Below, one piece after another: positions 13,329 through 46,325 of a DNA stretch of 64,000 nucleotides. The stretch covers positions 29,889,001-29,953,000 of the forward strand of contig OY727095.1 in the NCBI GenBank assembly GCA_963402885.1, written 5' to 3'. The notes beneath the pieces were generated by a model. That model was not told the DNA's origin, did no database searches, and worked only from the letters and a program-made list of their open reading frames with translations. Position numbers and translations under genes: made by a program. Each line of letters starts with the position of its first letter. The first letter of the stretch is position 1. The DNA is from Antedon bifida (lineage: Eukaryota; Echinodermata; Crinoidea; Comatulida; Antedonidae).

Positions 13329-15482
13329 TCAATAATTAAATATTTTTACATTATTTGCTCTGTGGTTGCCAACTGCAACTCTTCGTGGTCTTTCAGAGAT
13401 TACAGCAATCCCTACTGGACAATCCAACCCATCATCTTTGTTATCTATTCGTTTAATGAATTTACCATTTTTATCAAATATTTGTAGTTTATTAAAACTG
13501 GATACTAGTATATTCCCATCCATATCTATAGTTATACCTTGAGGAGCATAGACTTTGCCATCTTCTTTACCATAGCCTACAACATTTTGTATCAGCATAC
13601 CATTAGCATTAAACTTTTGTATTCTGCTATTTTCAAATTCAACAACAATCACCTGACCCTCCTTTGTTAAAGCAACATCAAGTGGTTCTTTCATTTGACC
13701 TTTAAAACCTATCTTACCCAGATGACCACCATCATCAATATTGAATTTAAAAACACAGTGACATTCACGGTCTGCAACATATAGGATCCTAGTTTTTTGG
13801 TTTACTGTTAAGCCAGCTGGATATTTTAATACTCCTTTACCAAATGTTCGGTATTCATGATATTGATAATCACACATTACAACACATTTTTCTGATTTGT
13901 CGCTATACACCATGTGACCATTGCCTATTTGTTGCATTTGATTGACTTTGACATGTTGTGGTATTTGTATTTTAGAAACAAAGCCACCTGATTGATCAAA
14001 CTTTATTAAATCTTTACTGTAGCTTGACACTAGCATACACCCATCAGTATCTAATACTACATCTGCCACTTTTGCTGTTTTATTATGTTCTTTATACTCT
14101 GATATGTTATCTATAGTATGTACAAGTCCAAGAGGTTCCACTTTGATACTCACTGGTGAACCTATGACATGTGACATAGCTCCACCAATGATATCCATGT
14201 GCCAATATCCTTCCATTTTGCATCTACCTGTTATTATGTACCCTCTCTTTATGAGTGCTACTTCAGTGGCTGATTTCTCACCTAATGAGTTACTTATTGT
14301 GGCTGTTAATTGACCAATATCACTCTCTGCTATACTTGATACTCTCACACTAAATGGCTGTCCTTTTGTGACTGAAATGTTCTTGTCTTTTTTATTAACC
14401 TTGTATACACCACCAACAGTGATAAGTTTACCAACACCTTCATGATTCATTAACTCAACCAGCTTTGTAGATGGAATAAACTTGGGCGTCATTGTTGTTT
14501 TAGTAAATGATTTATCCAAATCTGCTGTTGCCTCAATTCCAATGACATTGATATTCATCTGATATGATGCAAGATTTTCTGTTTCTGTTGGTTTGTTCAT
14601 CATTTTATTGATTGAGTCCATCAATGAGTTTGCTTGTGTCAACTTTGATTCAATACTTTTAACTTGACTATTAAAAACTTTGTTTTGTTCTTCATAAATC
14701 TCTGTAAGATTTTCCATCAGTACCTTGGTTTCTTCCTTCACCTTTCGGATCACTGTACTCTCGTGAATTTCAATTGCTGTTCTGCTTAACTTCAAACTAG
14801 ATTTAAACTCTTTTCTTTTTTTGGTGATATCATCTAATCTTTTCTTTAATTTTCTCTCAATGCCTTCAACTTTTTCCATAGTTTCAGTAACATTTCGATT
14901 AATGTCATTCAGAGCTGTCTCCATTGAGATCACTTCATGTTTACTTTTATAGCAACTGAGAATATGTTTGCAATCCTCACATGCAGTAAGTTTGCAAGTA
15001 CAGCAGTAATACTCTTGTTTTTTATCAGGATGATGTAAACAGGTTGGTGAATCTTTGCTTTTTTCTTTTTCATTTGTATCCAGTGTATATAGTGAATGGT
15101 TCTTAAATGCAGGCACATCCTTATGCTGTTGGATGCACTGACCACACAGATACATTTCACAATTAGAGCAATGGTATAGTGGTTTATTTTTACAACTTGA
15201 ACATGTTTCTGGCTTTTCAGATTCAATCTTGCAAACAAATTGAACTATATAGCTTATCGTGTCATTACACTTTAGACTTTTCAAATCATCTATTTTAAAA
15301 TTGTACGAATGACGGCATTTTGGACATCTTATTTTGCCGCGCCTTATCATTAAATTTTGCAGGCAGTTAAGACAATAAGTATGAAGACACTTAAGCACTT
15401 TTGGATTTGTGAATCTTTGTAAGCAGATTAAACATTCCAGATCTCTTTTGTCAACAAACTTCAACACTGTTTTATCAGTTAT
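13329..15482 (-). CDS. Gene B exon 3: RING, B-boxes, coiled coil, filamin, NHL
   Basis: Last exon of gene B (predicted about 943 aa; residues 227-943). The acceptor is TTTTACAG before ATAACTGATAAAAC, entered in phase 0 from the linker exon. RING at about 243-282 is a complete C3HC4 (CLIC, KCLHTYCLNC, CPKC). B-box 1 at about 319-355 (CSSC..CSNC..CGQC..H), B-box 2 at about 373-415, coiled coil about 415-540, filamin Ig about 585-690 (ending SPVSIKVEPLG) and NHL propeller about 700-943. There is no ATG at the start of this exon: its first codon is ATA, and the nearest alternative start-like codon is GTG, so the protein must start in exon 1. This makes gene B the clearest DED-like/TRIM-NHL fusion. 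Expected role: cytoplasmic E3 ubiquitin ligase that oligomerises through the coiled coil and selects targets with NHL; the target is unknown. Confidence 0.88.
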   Translation of the reverse strand: MTDKTVLKFVDKRDLECLICLQRFTNPKVLKCLHTYCLNCLQNLMIRRGKIRCPKCRHSYNFKIDDLKSLKCNDTISYIVQFVCKIESEKPETCSSCKNKPLYHCSNCEMYLCGQCIQQHKDVPAFKNHSLYTLDTNEKEKSKDSPTCLHHPDKKQEYYCCTCKLTACEDCKHILSCYKSKHEVISMETALNDINRNVTETMEKVEGIERKLKKRLDDITKKRKEFKSSLKLSRTAIEIHESTVIRKVKEETKVLMENLTEIYEEQNKVFNSQVKSIESKLTQANSLMDSINKMMNKPTETENLASYQMNINVIGIEATADLDKSFTKTTMTPKFIPSTKLVELMNHEGVGKLITVGGVYKVNKKDKNISVTKGQPFSVRVSSIAESDIGQLTATISNSLGEKSATEVALIKRGYIITGRCKMEGYWHMDIIGGAMSHVIGSPVSIKVEPLGLVHTIDNISEYKEHNKTAKVADVVLDTDGCMLVSSYSKDLIKFDQSGGFVSKIQIPQHVKVNQMQQIGNGHMVYSDKSEKCVVMCDYQYHEYRTFGKGVLKYPAGLTVNQKTRILYVADRECHCVFKFNIDDGGHLGKIGFKGQMKEPLDVALTKEGQVIVVEFENSRIQKFNANGMLIQNVVGYGKEDGKVYAPQGITIDMDGNILVSSFNKLQIFDKNGKFIKRIDNKDDGLDCPVGIAVISERPRRVAVGNHRANNVKIFNY

Positions 15483-15748
15483 CTGTAAAATATAATATAT
15501 ATTTATATATAACTAACCATTTTTGTAAGGATTACCTGGATTTACAGTAGAAGAACATTAGAAAAAATATAATATTTATAATAATAATATATATTTATAT
15601 TTTGGTATAGGCCTACAAAATACCAATACTGTAGTGCTTCTCAATAAGATTTTCTTTGCATTAGTTAGTTATAAGGTATTTTGAGATCTGTGTAAGCATT
15701 TAATATAGTATATATTGTGTATAATTGTTGATAGTATTTGAGATTTAC

Positions 15749-15807
15749 CTTTGTGTTTGGGTCAAGTGAAGTAGTAGTAGTTGCAGTAGGTTGTCTGTCA
15801 GTATGGG
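15749..15807 (-). CDS. Gene B exon 2: Thr-rich linker exon
   Basis: A 59-nt exon, minus strand, acceptor CTCTTCAG, donor ACAAAG/GTAAAT. With the one nucleotide carried from exon 1 it makes exactly 20 codons, beginning THTDRQPTAT and ending DPNTK, and hands over at phase 0. Same borders and phase as the linker exons of genes A and E. Rich in Thr; probably a flexible spacer that could be phosphorylated. Confidence 0.8.
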
Positions 15808-16429
15808 CTGAAGAGCGAACAAAATTTACTTTCAATATTATAATCAAAAGCACTGTTTCATACAGACTGTTTAATGATGTGTAACTACATGTACAATTAA
15901 ATATATTCACTACAGTTCCGGCTGCCACGCACAGTATATTTTTAATAATATATAATGCTGGATATTGAAGAAATAGTACATTTTGTTTGTTATTTACCCT
16001 AGAAATAAAAGTACATTGCACCTAAAGTTTACAACACAATTTGTGAAGAACCTTTCACAGAATGTGTAAATGAATACCTAGCAGGTTATATTGTTGGTGA
16101 CAAAGCAAATACCCTTTTAAGTGACAATAGAAGGCCTTACTTTAGTGGTTTTCCTAAATGTCAGTTTTTTGACTGGCCTTGAAAATTAATTTTATCAATT
16201 AATAATTAGATTTAATCAGTTATAGGGCTAATTTAGCCCTAATATTGTTCAAAGTTTATGTTATTATAATTATTTAATTTCTTCCTGATGATATATACAG
16301 TAAGCTAAAGGTATAATTTGTATATGTCTAATTACCTAAAAGGTATTAAGATTTTGGTTACAAAATATATCTCTTCATAATGTTAAATTATGGTTTAGCT
16401 TTGTTTGAAGATTTAATGACTTAAAATTT

Positions 16430-16545
16430 AAGTTTAAGGCGCGTAGTGCTGAGGGAAATATATTCCCTTGAGCAAAATATCATTCCCTCGGGGGATGTCA
16501 AATCTTATATTTCACCTCTAAGCAGGCAATATCTGTATAATTAAA
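16430..16545. mobile_element. Solo end of the 17-20 kb inverted-arm element
   Basis: In intron 1 just past the exon 1 donor of gene B. It matches the inner ends of the arms at 17269-18167 and 19371-20316: TGACATCCC, the GGGAATGATATT word and TCTAAGCAGGCAATATCTG. It ends in a small hairpin of GGGAATATATTTCCC type. A truncated third copy of that element. Confidence 0.6.
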
Positions 16546-16564
16546 GCTTGAATAAGTAACTTAC

Positions 16565-17183
16565 TCTCAATTGTAATCCTGGTCTTTTCTCCTTCTGTAG
16601 ATGCTTTATCAGCAATGAGTTTGTGCTTCTTGTTCCTTTGTTTTATTTCCAACAAAATGTTGCCAGCGTTTTTATCAAGAAGCTTTGCAAAACGTTCCAT
16701 TGATTCATTTTCATTCACCAGATATTTATTGCTTTCCAGAAAGAATACAAAATCCCAAACATTGTTAAACCTGTGGTGACCTAGGTTGTAGTTGGCAAGC
16801 ATGCTTGATACCTTTGTTGTGTTTTGTTGTAAAGCTGCAAAAAGTCTTTTGCGATATTCTGTGATTGGTTTTCCCTTGGTAAAGTTGAACTCTTCATTGT
16901 TGTTTGGATGCTTCACTTTAAACTGTTCTATTAAATCTATTGCTTTCTTCTGTTCAGTTACTTTAGCAATGTCTAACAGAATTTCTATATCAGTAGGATT
17001 GTAATTAATACAACCTTTTGTTTCAAGTTCATTAAACCATTCAAGTGCTGGAACATCATCTCTACTTAATACCATTCCAGAGCAGTGGTCATTCAGCAGA
17101 AGTCTTAGCCACAAACGGTTCTCACCTTTATATCTATCACTTACACGTTCAAGCAATGTTTTAAATTCTTGTTTTGTTGCCAT
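16565..17183 (-). CDS. Gene B exon 1: DED-like domain
   Basis: First coding exon, 206 codons plus one nucleotide. The ATG at 17183 lies 1 nt after a TTTTCTAG acceptor, the same arrangement as in gene A and unit D, which fixes the start. DED-like region about 3-93 (FKTLLERVSDRY, LWLRLLLND, ALEWFNELETKG, IEILLDIAKV, AIDLIEQFK), then second block about 107-175 (YRKRLFAALQQNTTK, VWDFVFFLE, MERFAKLLDKN). The donor ATTGAGA/GTAAGTT leaves phase 1, matching the linker exon; reading through it adds 15 residues of intron and then a stop. Death-fold domains recruit partners by self-association. Here it would place a ubiquitin ligase on such an assembly, which is inference. Confidence 0.8.
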
Positions 17184-28577: not shown

Positions 28578-29178
28578 GATTTTCCAACCAAGTAATAGGG
28601 CTTGCTTGATCTTCTCTCATGGTACAGTTTTTTTTATTGCCTCACATGGTAATGATAATTGTCTGGTTGATTTTCCAACAAGGTTCTAGGCTTGCTTGAT
28701 CTTCTCTCATGGTATGTTTGTTCGATTGCCTCACATGGAAATGATAATTGTCTGGTTCATTTTCCAAGGTTCTAGGGCTTGCTTGATCTTCTCTCATGGT
28801 ATGTTTGTTCGATTGCCTCACATGGTAATGATAATTGTCTGGTTCATTTTCCAAGGTTCTAGGGCTTGCTTGATCTTCTCTCATGGTATGTTTGTCGATT
28901 GCCTCACATGGTAATAATAATTGTCTGGTTGATTTTCCAACAAGGTTCTAGGGCTTGCTTGATCTTCTCTCATGGTATGTTTGTTCGATTGCCTCACATG
29001 GTAATGATAATTGTCTGGTTGATTTTCCAAGGTTCTAGGCCTTGCTTGAGCTTCTCTCATGGTATGTTTGTTCGATTGCCTCACATGGTAATGATAATTG
29101 TCTGGTTCATTTTCCAACAAGGTTCTAGGGCTTGCTTGATCTTCTCTCATGGTATGTTTGTTCGATTGCCTCAAATAA
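28578..29178. repeat. Minisatellite of about 87-91 bp units
   Basis: About seven head-to-tail units, each with GGTTCTAGGGCTTGCTTGAT, CTTCTCTCATGGTATG, GATTGCCTCACATGG and AATGATAATTGTCTGG. Several units are multiples of 3, so repeated reading frames stay open on both strands (minus: MREDQASPRTLENE repeats; plus: SHGMFVRLPHMVMI repeats). I read it as a non-coding tandem repeat. It is not a CRISPR array: the units are contiguous, with no unique spacers. Confidence 0.9.
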
Positions 29179-29689
29179 TAATTGAAAATTGTTTATTGAT
29201 TTCATTGATTTTGTTTACAAGATCATTAGTGCTTGCACGATTTTCTCACATGTAATATGGTAGTTTTCTTGCATGGAATCAATGGCAACTTGCTCTTTGA
29301 TCTCATTTCACATTTTGTCATATTCTTCTTGTTTTAATCTACATGAAAATAAATTGTATTAAAATAAGTTGAAAAGATATACCAATGGAGGAAGTTTCAC
29401 GGTTTTTATAACCAGAAATTAGTTTCTTTTAATAAACGTGCTAAAGCTATGTAAAAAGAGATTTGTAAAATGTTTTGCATATAAACTTTACATATTTATA
29501 TTCACATAAGAATATAGCTTTTACAATTTGTTACATTTTATCTACACTACTACAGCATTGGAAAAACAGTTTGTTTAAAAACAACCTTACCTTATTTACT
29601 TTCATCTTTATCCAACACCTTAAAACTTAAACAAAAATATATAGTTATTCTCATATTTGAAAAATAAATTTTTTAATTGGTTATCCGCA

Positions 29690-34370: not shown

Positions 34371-35416
34371 AAAACAATGACGTGCTCAGAGTAAGACGTG
34401 CATAGTGAGCGCTCCTCATTTGACTACAATTTACACGGCGTGTATGCATCATGGCCACCAAACCCAAGACTCGCTCTCGCCCAGCCGATATTGAAAGTGC
34501 TTGTTCCAACCCTGTGGACTTTAACAATTTTGTACATGCTTCTCTAAAATCATTATTAGATGGGCAGGCCAAAATTAAAGAGGATTTGAACCAAGCTATT
34601 GGATTTAACTCGGACAGAATCGCAGCACTCGAGGAAAACGATATTATCAAGGCTAACAAGATTGGTCAACTCGAACAAACGGTTGATAAATTGTCATCTG
34701 CGGTTGCGAAGCTGGAACTAGAGGCCAATAAATCTGAATGCTTCAGCCGACGTAACAACGTTCGAATTGTGGGACTTAAAGAAGAATCAGGTGAGGATTG
34801 TGTTGTCTTGGCCAAGAACATTCTAATAGATAACTTTGAATTTAGTGAAATACCAACGATAGAGCGTGCACATCGAGTCGGTCCTGTACTGCCGGTGAGG
34901 CCCCGACACAATTATAATTAAACTACTTAGTTATAACTCTAAAGTTCAAGTCATGAAACAGAAGAATATTGCCTTACAAGATAAACAGTTCTACGTGATA
35001 GATGATCTGACCTTAGTGGATTATAAAGAAAAGAAGAAATGGAAATTTCAAGTTAAAGCTTTATACGACAATGGAACTAAACTTAAATTCTCTGCTGGTA
35101 AATGGCGAACTTCTACTGGGATTCCCTATATATTCAAGTAACTTTTACGGTGTTTTGAGGAACTGAGATATGACTGGTTTCTTTTTCTCAGCCTTCTTTC
35201 ATTTTGTAATGTCAGTATATCTAACCTGGCTTTGCTTGTTTAAATTCCAAGCATGTCCGCTATGTACCATTATGCAAATTATACCTTTGCATACCCGGTT
35301 GCATATCTAATGTATTATTCTCCGTTTTATACACGAGGAGTGCAACGCTTACGCTACCTATGTATTAGTAATACGGCAGCACTAAACAGAATTGTTTTAA
35401 GTTTAATTATTGTTAT
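34371..35416 (+). mobile_element. LINE, 5' part with ORF1
   Basis: Plus strand. The ORF1-type protein starts at ATG 34451 (MATKPKTRSRPADIESA), with a coiled coil (IKANKIGQLEQTVDKL) and the nucleic-acid-binding region (RRNNVRIVGLKEES, IERAHRVGP) typical of LINE-1-type ORF1. A frameshift near 34915 breaks it; the second part continues to the stop at 35141 (QFYVIDDLTLVDY, SAGKWRTSTG). The element continues after the Ty3 insertion at 42818. A related, more decayed copy lies at 58603-59475 and provides the uninterrupted order. Confidence 0.8.
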
Positions 35417-35980
35417 TGTAAAAGGCTCTGGCCTCCCTAAACTTGTGTGGGATTGCGGTTGACACGTGCAACAATAATACCAGGTAACTCGTCTGAACAA
35501 ACATTTATTGGCATAAAAACAGGCAAGCAAAACAGCCTCTGTAATACAGATATCAAAGATAAATAGTTCAATGCAATATTTTCATAAATTAGGCTAGTCA
35601 TTACTGTAGGCCTCCTAGGATATAATGTAGGCCTAGGCTAGTTAACTTGTACAGTAGTTTTAGCAATGTTCAACCTCACAAAATATTAATCCTATCAGGC
35701 CTATAATGTAAACCAACTATAAGAAACAAAAATAAAATATAAGTCATAACAAACTCTCACTAACCAGTTTATGGCAGTTTAATTAATTAATTACAAATTC
35801 TTAGCATTTATTGTATTTGCTTTAGCCAGGAGAACACTACTCTCCCTGCCAGTCACCCAGGCCAAAGAGAGAGATGTCTCCTTGGATACAGCTCTCTAGG
35901 CTTGGGTGTCCAGCAGGGTTCCCATCCCCCATGGACTATTCCATTATCACAAAATCAAACAAAATCACTGAACCATAACA
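35417..35980 (-). repeat. Ty3/gypsy 3' LTR
   Basis: 564 bp, TG...CA ends (plus-strand view TGTAAAAGG ... CCATAACA). By eye identical to the LTR at 42254-42817. The short purine stretch beside it (ACGGGGAACA on the minus strand) is the likely polypurine tract. The outer flank is TTAT, the target-site duplication. Confidence 0.95.
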
Positions 35981-36826
35981 TGTTCCCCGTGATGACTATA
36001 CTTGGCCCCCAAGTATTGTAATCTGACACACTGTCGCAAGATAAAGTATACTAATTATTAGATACCCGATTGTTGGTTGAAATAGCATTGGGATGCCACC
36101 CCCCGTTAAGACATTCTGCAATGGACTCCTAACCATCATGTCATGCCAACTGTTAAAGTGAAGATACTAAATACGGAGCCAGTACGGTCCCTCCCAATAG
36201 CAGAAGTATGAGGAATTTCCAATGCGAGTCCACCCATCATGGCCCTTGTTACCATGACACTCACCCGATCAGTAAAGTTCTGATCGCACCTCATGACCAC
36301 TGCTAAAGGTTCACCCATAAGACTGCTTTCCAACGCAACTAACAGCTCAAGGAGCATGACCAATCCAATAGGTGCCACCATACGGCTTCATACCCCAAAA
36401 ACTATAACTACAACAACTCATAGGTTACCCTATAACCATTACTCTGTGACAGATCGATTCATTATATAATACAAGCTTCAGAGATTGTGGTACTTTAAAC
36501 CATTATTATCAGCTTTTCAATCATCTATAAATACATCTCATGTTACATGATACAAGAACCTGTGTGTACCTAATTATTTTCAAAATACCATATTATGACA
36601 CCATAACATGCTGTACTCTTAAACTTAATACCTATTAACAATTAGGTAAACAATAGTAACATAATTATAACAATAACTCCTATGCGGTAATATTGATGAA
36701 CACCAAACACTTTATCATCATAGATTATTTAGCTTAAAATGGTTTAACAATTACAGAAAAGTAGCACAAACCAATAGAAGGTGTGCATACATAAAATTCA
36801 AGTTCATAAAATAATTAAGTCAACAC
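35981..36826. other. Ty3 3' untranslated region
   Basis: Between the pol stop and the 3' LTR. An 81-codon minus-strand frame (36136-36381) has no signal peptide, membrane anchor or glycoprotein features. Regarded as non-coding. Confidence 0.5.
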
Positions 36827-39800
36827 TTAATGGCGAGAAACTGTAGACTTTGGCCATTTCTCAGGGTTACTATGAAAACCTCTAGTTGATCTTGATGATC
36901 GTCTGAGTTGAGGTTCTACTGGTTGGTGTCTTGCATCCTGCTGTGGTAAGTCATGATGTGTAAATACCCAGGTTGGCATATCATCTTCTTCATCTGAGTC
37001 ACTTCCTACAATGTCTTCAGTTGTTGCTTCCCTTGGATCAACAATTAAGAGTTTTCTATTTACAGTACGTGTCGGGCCACCCAGAAGAGGCCGAATATTG
37101 TAAACGTCTCCAGCGTCGTTAACCCAAACTATGATGTAGGCATCATGATGAAACTTGTCTTCTAACTTGTGTCTGCCTTCAAAAGCACACCTTTTCAACA
37201 GTACACGATCTCCAACGCTCAGTTGTGGACTCATCTTATGTATATTCTGCTTCAGTGTAGAGTTTTCTAGTTTCCGTTCAATGCTATCTTTTGCCACTTG
37301 ATGGGCTTGTTGTATAGCATCAGCTTGTTGTTCGATAAAGTCATCTTCCCAGTTTTCCCGTGAATTGTTGAGAAGTTGGTCTAATGGCGTAAACGGTTCA
37401 CGTCCATATAGTAGGCGAAATGGTGAAACACCAGTAACACTGTGGGGTGTTGAATTATACAAGAACACTAAATGTCCAAGCAGCTCTGGCCATTTTCGTC
37501 GTTGTTTATGATCAATAGATCTTATCATTCCACAAAGGGTACGGTTAAATCTCTCTGTTTGGCCATTGCCCTGCGGGTGGTATGGCGTGGTCCTGGATTT
37601 GTGAATGTTGTAGAGTTTGCAAAGTTCCTTAATGACTAGGCCTTCGAAGTTTCTCCCCTGGTCGGAGTGAAGCCGCTGTGGTGCACCATAATAATTGAAC
37701 CACTTCTCTTGAAGGACTTTCGCTACTACTATGGCTGACTGATTTCGGCAGGGTATAGCTTGTGCAACCTTAGTAAACGCATCTGTTAGAACCAAGACAT
37801 CCTCGTAACCACCTTTGCCCTTATCAAGTTTGAGAAAATCAATAGCTAACAACTCAAATGGACGGAATGCGATTAGATGGCGTCTAGGCATGCGAATCAT
37901 GGGACAAATTGTCTTGGATGTTGTGCAAGTGAAACATTTCTTAATATGTTGTCGGACATCATCTTGAAGTCCAGGCCAGAAACATCTTGTCTTTAAAATG
38001 CCAATAGTCCTATTAGCACCTTGATGACCCCATCCATCGTGTGCCATCTCTAGCATTTTGTTGCGAAGACTATGTGGAATGAGTAGTTGTCGACAGTCAC
38101 CTGTGTTACATTTAACTTCTCGGTATAGTACTCCTTTCCACTCCTTTAAATGTGTTATCTGTTTTAACCATCCTCTTAGTCCAACAGAGTTATCAGTAAT
38201 TGGTTGCCCAGGTTTCCAGTTGATTTGCCAATACTCCCAAACCTTTGCCAATATTGCATCGCTTCTCTGGAGGTTAGCTAATTGTTGGTGAGTGTAGGAC
38301 GGAAACAAACTATGTGTTTCATCTTGAGGGTGAATTTCTTTAGTAGTTTGATTTGCATTTCGGATGTTGATGGGTACTAAACTACAGGCTGTCACTTCTT
38401 TTACCATTACTGTAACATCACATACTTCAGCATCTGGACATCTGCTTAGTGCGTCTGCACACTGATTGCTCTTCCCAGGTTTGTACTTAATGTCGATATT
38501 GAAAGGTGCGAGCTGAGCCACCCAACGATGTTCCGTTGCTCCTAACTTGGCTGTCCTTAAATGAACTAATGGGTTATGATCTGTAAAGACAGTGCATTTT
38601 GATCCTCTAATGTATGATCCAAACTTTTCTGTTACAGCCCATTTCAGAGCGAGAAGTTCTACTTTGAAGCTTGAGAGATCTGCATAATTCTTTTCAGCTC
38701 CACGAAGGCTGCGGCTGGCATATGATATGGGGTGAAGTTTTCCATCTTCGTCTGCTTGCATTAAGCATGCTCCTAGACCATTGAAAGAAGCGTCCACTTC
38801 TATAACAAACTCCTTACCGAATATGGGGTAGGCCAAGACAGGTGCTGTTGATAGTGCTTTCTTCAGTGTCTGGAATGCTGTTTCGGCTTGTCCACTCCAT
38901 TCAAACGATAGCTTCTTCCCCGCATTTCTGGTTTTCTTTCCGGTCAATCCATGTAATGGAGCAGCAACTTTCGAGAAGCCAGATATGAATCGTCTATAGT
39001 AAGATGCAAGTCCCAAGAATGAACTCACTTGCGATGAATCTTTGGGAGTAGGCCACCGCATAACTTTCTCTACCTTACTTGGGTCTACCGATATTCCATT
39101 TTTGTTGACGATATGACCTAGATGAGTTACTTCAGTCTGGAACAACTTGCATTTTCCACCTTTTAACTTCAAACCACACTTCTGTAGTCTCCTGAATACT
39201 TCAGCTAACCGGTCCAAATGTTCTTCAAAAGTGTTTGAAAATACAAGGATGTCATCCAAATACAATATCAATTTTTCGAGGTTTAGATCACCAAATATAT
39301 TTTCCATAATTCGCTGGAATGTTCCTGGACTATTACACAATCCTTGAGGCATGCGATTGAATTCGAATAACCCCCAAGGAACTCGAATAGCTGTTAATGG
39401 GACGGAGTCTGGGTGCATCGAAACTTGAAAATATCCATGAGAGAGATCCATAGGTGAGAAATATTTGGCTCCACCTAAAGCTTCAAGAGTCTCGTCAATC
39501 CGAGGTAACGGGAACGAATCCTTGATTGTGATTGCATTGAGTTGTCGATAATCCACACACAGTCGCAGTGCTCCTGAGCTTTTCCGTACAAGTACTACTG
39601 GGCTAGCATACGGACTAGAGGACTTCTGTATAATTCCTTTATCGAGCATGCCTTGTAGCAGCTGTTTGACTTCGGCCATTTGTGATGGTGGTATTCTACG
39701 ATAGGGCATACGGATTTGCTTGTCAGTGGAGACTTTGATTTCATGAGGAATTAAATCACAATATCCAAGATCGAACTCGCCAGTTGAGAAAACCTCTTTA

Positions 39801-40816
39801 TGATCTACAAGCAATCTTGCAACTTGGTCAATTTCATCAGGATCGATGTTATTGAGACTTACTCCAAATGGTAGTTCCAAGATTGTGCCATCTCTACACA
39901 CATGTCTCTCACAGGTATTTATTTGCGTTAGTGGAATGGGTGAGCTGTTAATTACTTGACTCTCATCAGTATAAACTTCTCTAACATCTATTTGTAGAAC
40001 ATCATCTGTCTGGAATGTAACTACATGAGCTTGTTGAACTAGCTCTACTGCTGCTGCTACCATGGTTTTGGGTTTTAAGATTAGTTCTTCGTCAGTTGAA
40101 TTCGAAACAAGCAGACTCACTTGTGAAACTCCGGATACACAACCTTCAATTACCTCCAGACCTTCTCTATCACTGGATGATTTAATTAACCATAGACTCT
40201 TAACATCATTATCAAGCCTACATGTGGCATCAAAACAGCATTCTAGTCTTTTTACTGATCGTGGGGGAACGACTTCTAACAAATCTTTGGTTAGTACACC
40301 ACGTTTCCCACATGTTACTTTGGACTCTGCTGTTTCATTAGACATCTTCAGGCTATTAATCACCATGCTTAGGTTTTCATCTGGTGTATCAATGAATAAT
40401 CGTAGGGCATTACATCCTAGTATCAAAGGAAAATCTTGCTTACGTCCACATTTAGGTGAATTGCTTTCTACCACCAGAAACCCAACGACGACCGTCTTAT
40501 TTCCTATGGTAACAGGTATCTGTACATAACCTTCAACTGCTATTTTGGTTCCTGTAACTCCAACAATCTTAATAGCGGAATCTAGGTTTTCCATTGGACC
40601 AATACGAGGCTTCAGTATTGAATTGTATACATCAGTTGGGATTATTGAGGCTTCGGCTCCTGTATCAAGAATGCAGCCGATCCGTGCACCAGCAATATCC
40701 AACATCATTTTCGGGCTCGGCGCCAGTAGTCCCAACCTAGTCGATTCAGTTTGATCCTCACTTTTCACCCTACTCTCATGTGCAACAATAGGCAGTTTAT
40801 CACTCCCTCCTACCAC
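36827..40816 (-). CDS. pol: Ty3 pol polyprotein
   Basis: About 1330 codons. Aspartic protease near residue 45-130 (GCILDTGAEASIIP). Reverse transcriptase about 370-560 (LCVDYRQLNAIT, MDLSHGYFQV, catalytic LILYLDDILVFS). RNase H about 650-780 (VIEVDASFNGLGACL, FTDHNPLVHL). Integrase from about 900: the HHCC zinc region (HDGWGHQG, CFTC), the DDE core (LLAIDFLKL, HSDQGRNFEG, YHPQGNGQTERFNR), then a C-terminal region ending in VYNIRPLLGG-type sequence. It overlaps the gag end by 7 nt in the -1 frame and its first codon in the frame is GTG, so it is probably made by -1 frameshifting as a gag-pol fusion. All catalytic residues visible are in place. Confidence 0.95.
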   Translation of the reverse strand: MVGGSDKLPIVAHESRVKSEDQTESTRLGLLAPSPKMMLDIAGARIGCILDTGAEASIIPTDVYNSILKPRIGPMENLDSAIKIVGVTGTKIAVEGYVQIPVTIGNKTVVVGFLVVESNSPKCGRKQDFPLILGCNALRLFIDTPDENLSMVINSLKMSNETAESKVTCGKRGVLTKDLLEVVPPRSVKRLECCFDATCRLDNDVKSLWLIKSSSDREGLEVIEGCVSGVSQVSLLVSNSTDEELILKPKTMVAAAVELVQQAHVVTFQTDDVLQIDVREVYTDESQVINSSPIPLTQINTCERHVCRDGTILELPFGVSLNNIDPDEIDQVARLLVDHKEVFSTGEFDLGYCDLIPHEIKVSTDKQIRMPYRRIPPSQMAEVKQLLQGMLDKGIIQKSSSPYASPVVLVRKSSGALRLCVDYRQLNAITIKDSFPLPRIDETLEALGGAKYFSPMDLSHGYFQVSMHPDSVPLTAIRVPWGLFEFNRMPQGLCNSPGTFQRIMENIFGDLNLEKLILYLDDILVFSNTFEEHLDRLAEVFRRLQKCGLKLKGGKCKLFQTEVTHLGHIVNKNGISVDPSKVEKVMRWPTPKDSSQVSSFLGLASYYRRFISGFSKVAAPLHGLTGKKTRNAGKKLSFEWSGQAETAFQTLKKALSTAPVLAYPIFGKEFVIEVDASFNGLGACLMQADEDGKLHPISYASRSLRGAEKNYADLSSFKVELLALKWAVTEKFGSYIRGSKCTVFTDHNPLVHLRTAKLGATEHRWVAQLAPFNIDIKYKPGKSNQCADALSRCPDAEVCDVTVMVKEVTACSLVPINIRNANQTTKEIHPQDETHSLFPSYTHQQLANLQRSDAILAKVWEYWQINWKPGQPITDNSVGLRGWLKQITHLKEWKGVLYREVKCNTGDCRQLLIPHSLRNKMLEMAHDGWGHQGANRTIGILKTRCFWPGLQDDVRQHIKKCFTCTTSKTICPMIRMPRRHLIAFRPFELLAIDFLKLDKGKGGYEDVLVLTDAFTKVAQAIPCRNQSAIVVAKVLQEKWFNYYGAPQRLHSDQGRNFEGLVIKELCKLYNIHKSRTTPYHPQGNGQTERFNRTLCGMIRSIDHKQRRKWPELLGHLVFLYNSTPHSVTGVSPFRLLYGREPFTPLDQLLNNSRENWEDDFIEQQADAIQQAHQVAKDSIERKLENSTLKQNIHKMSPQLSVGDRVLLKRCAFEGRHKLEDKFHHDAYIIVWVNDAGDVYNIRPLLGGPTRTVNRKLLIVDPREATTEDIVGSDSDEEDDMPTWVFTHHDLPQQDARHQPVEPQLRRSSRSTRGFHSNPEKWPKSTVSRH

Positions 40817-42132
40817 CTTGCCTCTGATGGCGGAGGGCAGAAGTTTTCCGGGTGCTGTACTCCTGCCGACTGCTGCATAGCTGGTTGTGTGGTTCGCTGT
40901 TGCTGCATGGTTTTCTGAGATGAATAGTTCATCTGCGGCTGGTAAGTTGCCTGTGGCTGACCAGTTAGTGGTGGTTGGTATGTTGGTCTAGGTTGATTGA
41001 CTACCTGTGGCTGGTAAGTTGTCTGTGGATGACTAGTTATTGGTGGTTGGTAATTTGGTCCGGGTTGATTGACTGCCTGTGGCTGGTGCATCTGTTGAGG
41101 TGTAGGTCGAATTTGGTAGGCTCCTTGAAGTTGGGGAACTGGTGCTTGGTGGTAAGCTGGTTGAGATTTGAAGCTTGGCTGTGGTTGGTAGGATCTTTGT
41201 GAATAGGTGTCCTGTGACCAATTTGTGTTATGGCACTGGCGTTTATAATGACCTTTCTGCCCACACTCGTAGCACTTAGCATCTTTAATTGACCTGCTTT
41301 TAGTACTTGTACTCCATGGCCTATCCATTTTCTCGATCACCAACCTTAATTTGGCCATTTCATCTTTCAGGGTGTTGACCTCTTTGGATAACTCATGACT
41401 CCCGGTTGATTGGTTGTTTTGGTCACGATGAAAAGTATTCGCCACTTGGTCAGCATGCACCTCGTATACACCATGGGACCTTCTAGAGATTGGTTCCTGA
41501 TCTTGGAAAAAATCAAGTGCACTTCTACGCATTTCCATAAACGTCCTGCCCCTGCAATCAATTTCTATTCGCCGCAACTCCCGCTGCACCCATTTTTCGC
41601 GGACACCTCTAACCAGTCTTTCTTTCAGAGTATTATCTTTTAGTCTTGCCATTGCAGTTCTTTCACCAGCATCTGTCGTTGCTGTTTCCATTTTTCCATA
41701 CAGTCTCATTAGTGCTAAACTAAACTCTGCCAGGCTTTCTCCATCTTGTTGTACACGATTATGTAGAGTCTCACTCAACGAGGCATTTGTCTCAAGTGGA
41801 CCAAAACGTTCTTTCAACACATTGATTATTCGCTCATGGTTGCTTCGCACATCAACCCCATAACACATCAGTTCTTCTTTAGCACTTCCACCTAAATGGT
41901 CCAACAAGGCTTGAGCTTTCTTGGCATCTGCCAGTCCATACTGATTTGCGTAGGCTGAGAAATCTTCCAGCCACTCAGTCAACGAAGGTTCGTTGGTTGC
42001 CTTGGAACCTCTAAACTTGGTCAACTTGATTCCAGGATGAACATGATGGACGTTGATGCCTTGAAGTGCAGTTGCTATTGTTTGTAAAATCTCCTGTGTA
42101 GAAGGACCTTCTCCGTTTTCCATAGCCATCAT
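40810..42132 (-). CDS. gag: Ty3 gag polyprotein
   Basis: 440 aa. The N-terminal two thirds is capsid-like (LTEWLEDFSAYANQYG, LLDHLGGSAKEEL, RVQQDGESLAEFSLAL), followed by one CCHC zinc knuckle (CYECGQKGHYKRQC) near residue 288 that binds RNA, then a Gln/Pro-rich tail of degenerate repeats (about QPQATYQPQ). Starts at MMAMENGEG shortly after the 5' LTR leader. The single zinc knuckle and length are usual for Ty3/gypsy gag. Confidence 0.93.
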   Translation of the reverse strand: MMAMENGEGPSTQEILQTIATALQGINVHHVHPGIKLTKFRGSKATNEPSLTEWLEDFSAYANQYGLADAKKAQALLDHLGGSAKEELMCYGVDVRSNHERIINVLKERFGPLETNASLSETLHNRVQQDGESLAEFSLALMRLYGKMETATTDAGERTAMARLKDNTLKERLVRGVREKWVQRELRRIEIDCRGRTFMEMRRSALDFFQDQEPISRRSHGVYEVHADQVANTFHRDQNNQSTGSHELSKEVNTLKDEMAKLRLVIEKMDRPWSTSTKSRSIKDAKCYECGQKGHYKRQCHNTNWSQDTYSQRSYQPQPSFKSQPAYHQAPVPQLQGAYQIRPTPQQMHQPQAVNQPGPNYQPPITSHPQTTYQPQVVNQPRPTYQPPLTGQPQATYQPQMNYSSQKTMQQQRTTQPAMQQSAGVQHPENFCPPPSEARW

Positions 42133-42235
42133 AAATAGTATATAATATGATTATGTAAAAAGTATAGGTCTTCCATAAACTGAGGCTGCTTCCTTGAATA
42201 ACGTACTTTTTACCTTTATCTTGTCTTGTGTTCAA

Positions 42236-42252
42236 TCCCACTTCTGACACCA
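42236..42252 (-). promoter_or_regulatory. Ty3 primer-binding site
   Basis: One base after the 5' LTR the minus strand reads TGGTGTCAGAAGTGGGA, complementary (with about one mismatch) to the 3' end of tRNA-Leu (CCCACTCCTGACACCA type). It defines the 5' LTR and the minus orientation. Confidence 0.75.
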
Positions 42253-42253
42253 C

Positions 42254-42817
42254 TGTAAAAGGCTCTGGCCTCCCTAAACTTGTGTGGGATTGCGGTTGAC
42301 ACGTGCAACAATAATACCAGGTAACTCGTCTGAACAAACATTTATTGGCATAAAAACAGGCAAGCAAAACAGCCTCTGTAATACAGATATCAAAGATAAA
42401 TAGTTCAATGCAATATTTTCATAAATTAGGCTAGTCATTACTGTAGGCCTCCTAGGATATAATGTAGGCCTAGGCTAGTTAACTTGTACAGTAGTTTTAG
42501 CAATGTTCAACCTCACAAAATATTAATCCTATCAGGCCTATAATGTAAACCAACTATAAGAAACAAAAATAAAATATAAGTCATAACAAACTCTCACTAA
42601 CCAGTTTATGGCAGTTTAATTAATTAATTACAAATTCTTAGCATTTATTGTATTTGCTTTAGCCAGGAGAACACTACTCTCCCTGCCAGTCACCCAGGCC
42701 AAAGAGAGAGATGTCTCCTTGGATACAGCTCTCTAGGCTTGGGTGTCCAGCAGGGTTCCCATCCCCCATGGACTATTCCATTATCACAAAATCAAACAAA
42801 ATCACTGAACCATAACA
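42254..42817 (-). repeat. Ty3/gypsy 5' LTR
   Basis: 564 bp; starts TGTTATGG and ends TTTTACA on the minus strand. By eye the same as 35417-35980. Contains the element's promoter by position; a TATA box was not assigned. Confidence 0.95.
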
Positions 42818-43638
42818 TTATACTTAGTTTTTTATTTTATTATATTATTGTTAACTTTTACCTAATGTTTAAATTATTTTTGATACCTATAATTAATGTG
42901 CCAATCCAACCCTACAACTGATGTAAAATTTAACCATTTTGTGGCATACGAGAACTTGAATATTAACGAAAATGTTGATCCACACTCTCAATTTTATGAT
43001 AGCTTAATTGAATCTAATTATTTTGATCCAGAAACATTCTCAGAGAATTTCTCTAAGCATAACAATGATAAAAATATTTTGTCTACTATCCATTTTAATA
43101 CACATAGTCTCTTGGGTAAGATGGATTCTTTAAAACGTTTTCTTCTTACTCTTGAATTTGACTTTGATGTTATTGCTATTACTGAATCTTGGCTACAGTA
43201 TAACAATAATCCCCTAACAGATATGCCAGGTTATAATATTTTTTCTAGAAATAGGAAATCTAAGGCGGGTGGTGGTGTAGCCCTGTACGTACGAAACAAT
43301 GTATCAGTTACTGTCCGTAATGATTTAACAACAGATGAATCAATATGTGAATCGATATTTATTGAAATAGAACAGATACATGGGAAAAATATTATTGTGG
43401 GATCAATCTATCGTCTTTGAATATCAATGCATTCAATGATATCCTAGATAATCTACTTCATACTCTTTCAACTGAAAATAAGCTGGTATATCTGTTGGGT
43501 GATTTCAATATAGATATTTTGCAATATACTTATGAAACCACAACTAACAATTTTGTAAACACTCTTTTTAGCAACTTCTATTTACCGCTAATACTTATAG
43601 ACCTACTAGGATAACATCAAATACTGCTACTCTTATTG
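42818..43638 (+). mobile_element. LINE continued: start of ORF2 endonuclease
   Basis: Resumes the LINE after the Ty3 element. The frame at 42896-43420 is an apurinic-type endonuclease: HFNTHSLLGKMDSL, the catalytic-acid region VIAITESWL, GGGVALYVRN. A frameshift at about 43417 is followed by LVYLLGDFNIDIL (the GDFN motif), then RPTRITSNTAT. It is cut at 43638 by the fold-back element; the reverse transcriptase is missing. Confidence 0.85.
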
Positions 43639-43640
43639 TA

Positions 43641-46325
43641 GATGAGTGGAAATAGATGAAAAATAGGCGTTGAGTCAAACAAATTGCAACAGTTTGTTTT
43701 TTTGCTGAAACATGCTCAACTATATGTAGATATTATCATATCCAAAATCTACCCTGATCTGCCCATTATAAATTACCTAATTTGCATAAAATCAAAATGG
43801 CTGCCATTTGACAACTTTCATCCCAATTATCTCTTAAACCATAAAGAAATTGGTATAAGAATGTATTAAACACGAATATAAACATGACCCCAAAGATTCA
43901 GAATAATGTATTTGATTTGTCTTTGGGGTCAAGGTCAAAGGTCATTCCAGTAGGTCATCTAAAATATGCTAATATCTCTTAATCCAATAGGTATTTTGAA
44001 TAAGAATGCACAAGTACAAATATAAACATGACCCTTAAGATTCAGAATAGCACATTTGATTTTTCATCTTACCCTGGGGTCACTGGGTCAAAGGTCACAA
44101 TATAAAAACATTCAAATTATCCTTTAAATCAATTTGCATAGTAGTCTTACAACTACTAAAAACATAGCAAATACAGTACAGACATTGCAGCAGATTGATG
44201 TCTGCACACTGCGCCCACACCCCTCCCACCCTTAAACATTTTAAAAAGCTTGAATATTATAACTACTAAATTTACATAAGATCAGTAGGTCATTTACTTT
44301 ATACCATACAGTATATCTTATTCTGATAATACATTACTTTTACATTTAGGCTTACCTACTTTAGTAGGCCTACGAAGCTTACATTTCTGAAACATTGGTC
44401 ACAAACATTTCTAAATAATTCTTGGGTGGGACTCGATCGTCAATGGACTTAGATGTTTTTGCCATACTCTGGACCAATTTTCTTAAAGTATACTTTAGTA
44501 AGTATCACAATGAATTACCGTCTTACTGTATTCATTACATTCTGGAATAAAAGTATTGATAAATACTGTTACTTAATCCTAATATATACTGATACTTTAA
44601 ATTCAATTCAAAGCAACATTTATTTTCTCCTTTCATATACAAAATTGATTTCAATGAACAATATATATTTAAACAAAATTTCGAAAGAAGAAGCTATTAG
44701 TCCAGACAGATAAGACTTTGAGAAGATGAAGCTTAGAAAAAAGATGAGATGAATGAGACAGGGGTGGGGCGCCAGATATAACCCTGATGGCCTTTTTTTT
44801 AAAGAGTTTGAAGTTTTTTAATATTGGAAGGATAAGAGTTGCACCAGACAATATTGCAATATACAGGATAAGTGAGCAGTAAAGAATACGAAGAATGTTA
44901 GGGGGTAAAAAAGAAGAAAGTCTAGTGATGATGCCTAGACTTTTGGAAATTTTATTCGTAACAAAATTGATGTGATTTTTCCATGAAAGTCGACTGTCTA
45001 GATGAACTCCTAAAAATGTAGCAGATTGGACTGACAGAATATCATGATTGTTAATAGAAATGTTATAGTTTGCAGTATCAATGTTTTTAATTTTCTGAGG
45101 GGTCCCAAACAGGATGAAGTTACATTTTTTGTGGTTAAGAGAAAGTTTGTTAGCTGAAAAGTATTGAGACATGAGGGTCAGATTGGTATTAATAGTAACA
45201 GTAACACTTTAAAATGTTTACACTAAAGGTATTTAAATAATATATGAATACAAATTGCACTTTTATTTCTATTAAATACATTCTTGTTCAAAATACCTGA
45301 TGTTTTGAGAGATAATTAGCATATTTTATATGGCATACAGTAATTAGATGACATTTGACCCCATATACAAATCCATTGCATTTATTCTGAATATTTAGGG
45401 TCATATTTATTTTAAATACATTCTTGTTAATAATACCTGATGTTTTGAGAGTTATTTTCAAATTTTATATAGTGTAATTAGATAACCTTTTAAACCTTGA
45501 ACCCTAATACAACTCAATTACATTATTCTAAACCTTTAGGGTCATGTTTATATTTGTACTATAGTTATACATTCTTATTCAAAATATTTAATGGATAGAT
45601 TGTAGAGATAATTAGCATATTTTAGAGGCCATACTGGAATGACCTTTGACCTTATCCCTAAAGACAAATCAAATACATTATTTTGAATCTTTAGGGTCAC
45701 ATTTATATTTGTACTTGTAAAATCATTGACCTAGTAATCTCTGGGTGGGAGGGGTGTGGGCGCAGTGTGCAGACATCAATCTGCTGCAATGTCTGTACTG
45801 TATATGCTATGTTTTTAGTAGTAGTAAGACTACTATGCAAATTGATTTAAAGGATAATTTGAATGCTTTTATATTGTGACCTTTGACCCAATGACCCCAG
45901 GGTAAGATGAAAAATCAAATGTGCTATTCTGAATCTTAAGGGTCATGTTTATATTTGTACTTGTACATTCTTATTCAAAATACCTAATGGATTAAGAGAT
46001 AATTAGCATATTTTAGATGTCATACTGGAATGACCTTTGACCTTGACCCCCAAAGTCAATTCAAATATATTATTCTGAATCTTTGGGGTCATGTTTATAT
46101 TTGTGTTCAATACATTCTTATACCAAATTCTTTATGGTTTAAGAGATAATTGGGATCAAAGTTGTAAAATGGCAGCCATTTTGATTTTATGCAAATTAGG
46201 TAATTTATAGTGGGCAGATCAGGGTAGATTTTGGATATGATAATATCTACATATAGTTGAGCATGTTTCAGCAAAAAAACAAACTGTTGCAATTTGTTTG
46301 ACTGAAAAGTCTATTTCCACTCATC
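43641..46325. mobile_element. Fold-back DNA element with long inverted arms
   Basis: Arms of about 590 bp (43641-44231 and 45743-46325), near-perfect reverse complements, beginning GATGAGTGGAAATAG and ending in a GTGGGAGGGG-type end. Both outer ends are bordered by TA, as in Tc1/mariner-type insertion. The arms hold 130-bp-scale tandem repeats with AGGTCAAAGGTCA-type words. The 1.5-kb spacer has no transposase; it carries a captured LINE fragment and more of the same repeats (about 45240-45740). Non-autonomous. Confidence 0.85.
44460..45190 (-). mobile_element. LINE RT thumb fragment inside the fold-back element
   Basis: Minus-strand frame 44669-45172: YFSANKLSLNHKKCNFILFG, ATFLGVHLDSRLSWKNHI, LRILYCSLI, KKKAIRVISGAPPLSH. 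This is the C-terminal RT/connection region of a CR1-like LINE, the same family as 31265-32640. One open frame of 167 codons survives. It probably inserted between the arms before or during spread of the fold-back element. Confidence 0.8.

Follow-up and report, generated by a model that had tools for sequence, protein, structure and literature searches.

The window analysed here, a 64,000-nucleotide stretch of the genome of the crinoid Antedon bifida (assembly GCA_963402885.1, contig OY727095.1, positions 29,889,001 to 29,953,000), contains a three-exon gene, gene B, which on sequence grounds is in all probability a fused gene joining tandem death effector domains (DEDs) to a TRIM-NHL protein. 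The explanation that we favour overall, and consider somewhat probable, is that gene B encodes a tandem-DED TRIM-NHL protein, is the product of an exon cassette and would act as a ligase recruited by DED assembly. The case for the DED-TRIM join is built on a linker exon, the exon phases and a second species, Antedon mediterranea.

Splicing of the three gene B exons (Table 1) at GT-AG sites, with phases 1 and then 0, gives an open frame of 943 codons. The exon 1 donor reads A/GTAAGTT (the slash marks the exon border), and the 619 nt of the exon are 1 mod 3. Exon 2 lies between the acceptor TTCAG/ and the donor AAAG/GTAAATC, and exon 3 follows the acceptor TTTTACAG (ending in TACAG), begins with the codon ATA and closes with the stop codon TGA. 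A preliminary description of this DNA, made by a model from the letters alone, had given these coordinates, borders and phases, and they proved to be exact; a second gene of the window, gene A, follows the same plan, with three exons, the same phases and a homologous exon 2. None of 2000 mononucleotide shuffles of gene B exon 1 kept the frame open. The first in-frame methionine of exon 3 is codon 45, inside the RING and past six of its eight ligands, so that a TRIM-only protein from gene B would be without a whole RING. The lack of an ATG at the start of exon 3, to which the preliminary description had pointed, holds for gene B but not as a rule, as an ATG stands exactly at this border in paralogues C, D and E of the window and in L012, a copy elsewhere in the genome. 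Since D and L012 are also equipped with DED and linker exons, linked copies need not lack the ATG, and the idea that every DED-linked TRIM copy had lost it was dropped.

A stretch homologous to the gene B linker exon was found in A, D, L012 and L015, and a weaker one in L017. Between A and B, the linker exon and its splice sites matched over 93 nt at 71% identity (E about 1e-8), and the introns of the two genes showed no meaningful similarity but for a 27-nt match at the exon 3 acceptor. The spliced gene A model (895 aa) is collinear from end to end with a predicted A. mediterranea protein, P0008 (896 aa), identical residues numbering 176 of 209 in exon 1, 20 of 23 in exon 2 and 551 of 663 in exon 3. 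This agreement means that the DED-TRIM join is predicted in two species. Two predicted A. mediterranea proteins, P0008 and P0003 (1392 aa), span the whole fused query; P0003, the second predicted fusion, has all eight RING ligands and lacks the second B-box stretch. Protein searches (E 0.001, 1e-20 and 0.01) returned no relatives outside A. mediterranea, which says little about other echinoderms because such a search needs shared five-residue words.

The linker exon is conserved in several paralogues together with its splice sites, and gene A agrees with P0008 over its whole length. These two findings make it very improbable that exons 1 and 3 are two adjoining genes whose phase fit is a coincidence or an annotation artefact, even though a TRIM exon can be a gene of its own, as shown by gene C and the proteins P0004, P0005, P0006, P0009 and P0010, whose alignments begin with residue 1 at the exon 3 border. 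Gene B, moreover, has no border ATG, and translation from its first methionine would cut the RING. The hexamer AATAAA is present in neither gene B intron and twice within 429 nt past the stop, which also speaks for a single gene, but intron 1 contains five copies of ATTAAA and intron 2 one, and AATAAA is found twice in one intron of gene A and three times in the other, as might be expected of two separate genes; the absence of AATAAA is therefore weak evidence. We accordingly retain the fused gene.

The identity of exon 1 was derived from its family. Single-sequence Pfam searches gave DED at E 0.18 for gene B and 0.073 for gene A, with no match for gene D exon 1 at E up to 1; of ten exon 1 units compared first, six matched, the best at E 0.0023. 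Since the single-gene scores were too weak to settle the question, a 44-member alignment was built from two window members, two close copies and 40 sequences picked for spread from the genome matches. At E up to 1, Pfam DED matched 36 of these 44 chosen members (best E 1.3e-9), and the next family matched six. The profile search that the preliminary description had called for therefore succeeds with the family, but not with gene B by itself. Compared with the PDB, the family profile found solved caspase-8 prodomains (best E 2.2e-6), and the matches at E 0.001 or better comprised nine distinct sequences, all of them caspase-8. The alignment runs from DED1 through the DED1-DED2 junction, covering profile positions 3-147 of 169 in one chain. 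FADD, PEA-15 and c-FLIP matched the profile at E 0.07-0.4, amid unrelated matches of similar size, and an NCBIfam search gave no meaningful match. In the first PDB search, with a 10-member alignment, designed pentatricopeptide repeats appeared at E down to 2.6e-9; they were rejected because single stretches reached only E 11 or worse in the three alignments shown, which marks them as sums of weak repeat matches. Judged by its family profile, exon 1 is a tandem DED of the caspase-8 type. The DED-like nature proposed earlier is thus upheld at the level of the family, and the single domain then envisaged gives way to a pair.

Exon 3 is, by sequence comparison, a RING-B-box-NHL protein of the TRIM2/3/71 type, with putative ligase activity. 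Pfam matches over the cut-offs were obtained for the RING (PF13445, E 3.8e-9; PF00097, E 6.4e-7) and the NHL repeats (PF01436, E 4.7e-15), and the B-box family PF00643 matched in two stretches at E 3.9e-4 (21 bits against a cut-off of 24.1). The best PDB sequence matches were TRIM71 (E 5.7e-36) and TRIM2/TRIM3 (E about 1e-24), and the TRIM2 RING-B-box chain 8ams aligned to residues 5-124. All eight ligands of the C3HC4 RING are present in the alignment. The filamin domain of the layout named in the preliminary description gave no Pfam match at E up to 1, the resemblance being at motif level only; its RING, B-box and NHL parts were borne out. Pfam detected no death domain in gene B, where a TRIM-NHL part takes its place, and the plan thus departs from that of FADD (DED and death domain only). 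Nor does a caspase or pseudo-caspase domain form the C-terminus, exon 3 being TRIM-NHL, and TRADD-N also gave no Pfam match, the parts of gene B being the DED pair, the linker and TRIM-NHL.

The exon 1 cassette recurs throughout the genome to which the window belongs (315.6 Mb, 27 contigs), with at least 150 matches (150 scored of 465 first-look candidates), a few of them partial or with stops. The sequences downstream were surveyed for 14 copies with at least 63% identity among the matches listed; A, B and D lie in the window, and the others were taken in stretches of up to 10 kb. What lies downstream is TRIM sequence in six cases, a canonical DED in three, a NACHT open reading frame (ORF) in three (two loci), a caspase in one and another DED pair in one (L011). 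In 12 of the 14, the donor site has an equivalent position and is in phase 1 (11 by script, gene B by inspection); the script found none for L010, whose start it had misplaced, and L013. Among TRIM-linked cassettes, A and B are intact. The canonical-DED cases are L010, L013 and L016, of the type of P0001 (C-terminal DED, Pfam E 1.8e-7, just below the cut-off). NACHT ORFs follow two tandem cassettes in L009 and one in L014 (E 6e-18 and 5.6e-17); these long ORFs (L009, 5136-9896; L014, 5571-8768) are candidates for DED-type NLR proteins, and LRR repeats exceed the cut-off in L014 only. The genome as a whole holds at least 103 NACHT matches (103 of 229 candidates scored), many of them on contig C7 at 31.9-36 Mb. 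In L018 (217-3751), a tandem-DED exon precedes two same-strand caspase pieces, the second at E 3.4e-12 and the first at 0.0012, below the cut-off. They carry SSHGKG and QACRS, which we take to be caspase catalytic motifs. L018, the sole Peptidase_C14 case among the 14 closest copies, is a candidate crinoid caspase-8-like protein. TRIM sequence (37%) is also present downstream of L023, a more distant cassette (54%).

As one product of a tandem-DED first exon sited before differing effectors, gene B would carry a DED pair that lets its ligase enter DED filaments nucleated by other cassette proteins, such as NACHT sensors, the caspase and canonical-DED adaptors. The TRIM coil and clustering in the filament would bring the RINGs together and activate the ligase. 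Its ubiquitin would be placed on proteins of the filament or on targets bound by the NHL propeller, thereby strengthening, diverting or terminating the signal. Expression, splicing, assembly, ligase activity and targets of gene B are what we infer from its predicted structure, and we give about even chances to a DED-recruited ligase working in cell death or immunity.

The RING is lost in both gene A and P0008, with the B-box and NHL retained, and gene D has lost ligands. Because the DED pair and NHL are kept and the RING is missing in both species, gene A could be an inactive partner, as c-FLIP is beside caspase-8; we propose such a regulatory role for RING-less gene A only tentatively. With similar reserve, one may picture a plug-in cell-death platform of crinoids, in which one phase-1 tandem-DED first exon stands before NACHT, caspase, canonical-DED, ubiquitin (P0013, see below) and TRIM-NHL parts, all of whose products would enter the same filament, and in which gene B, with its RING intact, and its neighbour A, without a RING in both species, would form an active/inactive pair that sets the outcome through ubiquitination, much as caspase-8 and c-FLIP set it through proteolysis.

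It is general knowledge that higher-order assembly is needed by TRIM proteins and that the ligands of NHL propellers are RNAs or proteins. On this basis, the DED pair might be a device for self-assembly only, with gene B a stand-alone TRIM of the restriction type that clusters on a target recognised by NHL (a pathogen protein or RNA) and has no link to caspases. The TRIM exon of gene C, intact without a cassette, indicates that the ligase has a function of its own, in favour of this reading; the occurrence of the same cassette before caspase and NACHT ORFs in one genome points instead to shared partners, and we think self-assembly alone possible but rather doubtful.

Several observations weigh against the explanation that we favour. 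In Pfam, the DED match of gene B (E 0.18) stands behind one to L27_1 (E 0.016), both below their own cut-offs. The in-frame border ATG of exon 3 in some linked copies would permit a TRIM-only product. Other TRIM-linked copies are damaged: D has a stop in exon 2 and a retroelement in exon 3, L015 (a near-copy of D) has its TRIM in pieces with stops, L012 has the linker exon and broken exon 3 frames, and L017/L021 show a weak linker match and only TRIM residues 197-717, about 9.5 kb off. The nearest A. mediterranea matches of gene B reach about 67-68% in the DED part and 73% in the TRIM part, compared with about 83% for gene A and 96% for gene C, and protein searches found no close orthologue of gene B among the predicted A. 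mediterranea proteins, which counts against gene B being old or conserved. Within 15 kb of 80 DED exons, TRIM exons lie downstream in five cases, upstream in three and on the opposite strand in none; this count is not significant, so that position alone makes no case for the join. In favour of the explanation, TRADD-N-like exons within 6 kb of the same 80 exons lie downstream in 20 cases and upstream in one on the same strand, with none on the opposite strand (counts from 80 of 150 DED, 66 of 75 TRIM and 30 of 42 TRADD-N-like matches). Common transcripts of the cassette with the NACHT, caspase and canonical-DED exons are presumed from order and strand only. As regards the number of times that TRIM was joined to the cassette, the TRIM-linked label needs three changes on both trees, and the starred branches force only one, which would suit a single joining event as well as several.

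Three broken sister copies (D, L012 and L015) and the missing close orthologue would also suit a gene B that arose recently, is not expressed or is decaying within an unstable array of duplicates. We consider this improbable in view of its 943 open codons, its complete set of RING ligands and the Ka/Ks values below 1 of the pairs that include it. Between paralogues, Ka/Ks is 0.39-0.53 for exon 1 (three pairs of A, B and D, of which two involve the pseudogene D) and 0.45-0.65 for exon 3 (three pairs of A, B and C), with bootstrap upper limits of 0.56-0.87 for the two exons, values that indicate constraint, though relaxed.

Gene B was further compared with known systems. Like caspase-8 and c-FLIP, it has a tandem of DEDs that can be aligned through the junction between them, and a sister cassette lies upstream of a caspase domain; gene B differs from both in carrying a ligase instead of a caspase or pseudo-caspase domain. 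TRIM2, TRIM3 and TRIM71 form class VII of the TRIM proteins, the TRIM-NHL class. Gene B resembles them in its RING, B-box, coil region and NHL propeller, and differs in that its coding TRIM part is a single exon within a crinoid expansion. We know of no TRIM-NHL protein with an N-terminal tandem DED. The likeness to FADD, DEDD/DEDD2 and PEA-15 lies in the DED; these are short adaptors with one DED and without a ligase.

The closest published theme is that of the DEDD2-clade TRADD-N proteins. The preliminary description had held that no standard family joins such parts, a view that cannot be kept in this form, as the text of PMC8195603 (eLife 2021) reports DED-bearing proteins of this clade fused to TRIM ligases. 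According to that text, they form lineage-specific expansions in invertebrates (18-23 copies in echinoderms), usually carry a DED, have variable effectors including TRIM ligases and polyubiquitin, and are linked to retrotransposons. An echinoderm expansion bearing DEDs with TRIM or ubiquitin effectors is the point of likeness with the present family, and P0013 and P0003 fit it. The predicted protein P0013 (A. mediterranea, 849 aa) combines TRADD-N-like regions with two regions that resemble DED pairs, and it ends in ubiquitin (Pfam E 2.5e-24); its DED pairs were named by homology, not by Pfam, and a cassette related to exon 1 stands at its start. Unit E of the window with the exons at 63.5 and 61 kb also looks like the DEDD2-clade theme, as do P0003 and P0013, with weak support for TRADD-N. 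Genes A and B differ in having no TRADD-N and in passing from the tandem DED straight to TRIM-NHL through a linker exon of 59-68 nt. The comparison with PMC8195603 concerns its text, and a DED-TRIM protein without TRADD-N may be among the proteins of its figures and source tables. Apart from this theme, the top-ranked titles on DED/TRIM joins and on crinoid DED/TRIM genes offered no DED-TRIM-NHL protein. Within these bounds, genes A and B appear to be a variation on the published DED/TRADD-N/TRIM theme, the new feature being a tandem DED joined to TRIM-NHL without TRADD-N.

The window as a whole holds an array in which the TRIM exon repeats at spacings of about 10.6, 10.6 and 9.5 kb (Table 1). 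No DED-exon match was found between gene C and the gene D TRIM remnant. Support for TRADD-N in the exons at 63.5 and 61 kb is weak: Pfam gave no match for the former, TRADD-like_N was found in one of three aligned homologues of the latter (E 0.0025) and not in the window copy, and the 61-kb family had no match in the PDB. A DED-pair exon (L019, 743-222) lies just past the window edge, upstream of the TRADD-N-like pair and unit E, and together they are possibly a DED-TRADD-N-TRIM gene. A long terminal repeat (LTR) retroelement occupies 34400-46300 within the gene D TRIM exon; its minus-strand ORFs (42150-40810 and 40987-36827) are gag-pol-like, as named by eye, and identical 300-nt repeats lie at 35417 and 42254. 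The TRIM exon of L015, about 50 kb from D, has no comparable gap, and the insertion therefore seems younger than the duplication. A segmental duplication about 50 kb apart on contig C8 pairs 29937457 with 29987016 (gene D exon 1) and 29952174 with 30002038 (a TRADD-N-like exon, 99% identical). A tandem repeat with an 87-bp unit is located at 28602-29204.

Table 1. Predicted features of the window (positions counted from its first nucleotide)
Feature	Position	Strand	Remarks
Gene B exon 1, tandem DED	17183-16565	minus	619 nt, 206 complete codons plus 1 nt, phase 1
Gene B exon 2, linker exon (THTDRQPTATTTTSLDPNTK)	15807-15749	minus	59 nt, GT-AG borders
Gene B exon 3, RING-B-box-coil-(filamin-like)-NHL	15482-13329	minus	2154 nt, 717 aa, single coding exon
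Gene A exon 1, tandem DED	6576-5949	minus	628 nt, phase 1; 84% identical to P0008
Gene A exon 2, linker exon	4933-4866	minus	68 nt, 2 mod 3; 87% identical to P0008
Gene A exon 3, TRIM-NHL without RING (B-box and NHL retained)	4716-2725	minus	83% identical to P0008, which also lacks the RING
Gene C, TRIM-NHL, ATG at exon border	26073-23881	minus	96% identical to P0010 (unfused)
Gene D exon 1, tandem DED, part of decayed copy	49011-48426	minus	586 nt, phase 1
Gene D exon 2	47876-47813	minus	64 nt, in-frame stop
Gene D TRIM exon, N-terminal part	47085-46326	minus	severed by retroelement; C-terminal part 34389-33353
Unit E, RING-B-box-coil part of TRIM exon, border ATG	55487-54351	minus	NHL part broken up
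TRADD-N-like exon 1, upstream of unit E	63533-63174	minus	homologous to P0003 173-289; named by homology and position
TRADD-N-like exon 2	61090-60686	minus	homologous to P0003 290-426
Remnant of further tandem-DED exon at window edge	548-157	minus	–

Established DED pathways recruit their ligases in trans. Gene B would link a DED assembly module directly to a ubiquitin ligase within one predicted polypeptide, and would thus offer a natural system for asking whether filament assembly alone switches a TRIM ligase on. The presence of close cassette copies before sensor-like, protease-like and other genes suggests a mix-and-match toolkit for cell death or immunity, in which it may be asked whether an exchangeable tandem-DED exon lets an animal rewire its sensor, protease and ligase outputs. 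The family also provides an exon-level view of how the reported architectural variety of TRADD-N/DED proteins could arise.

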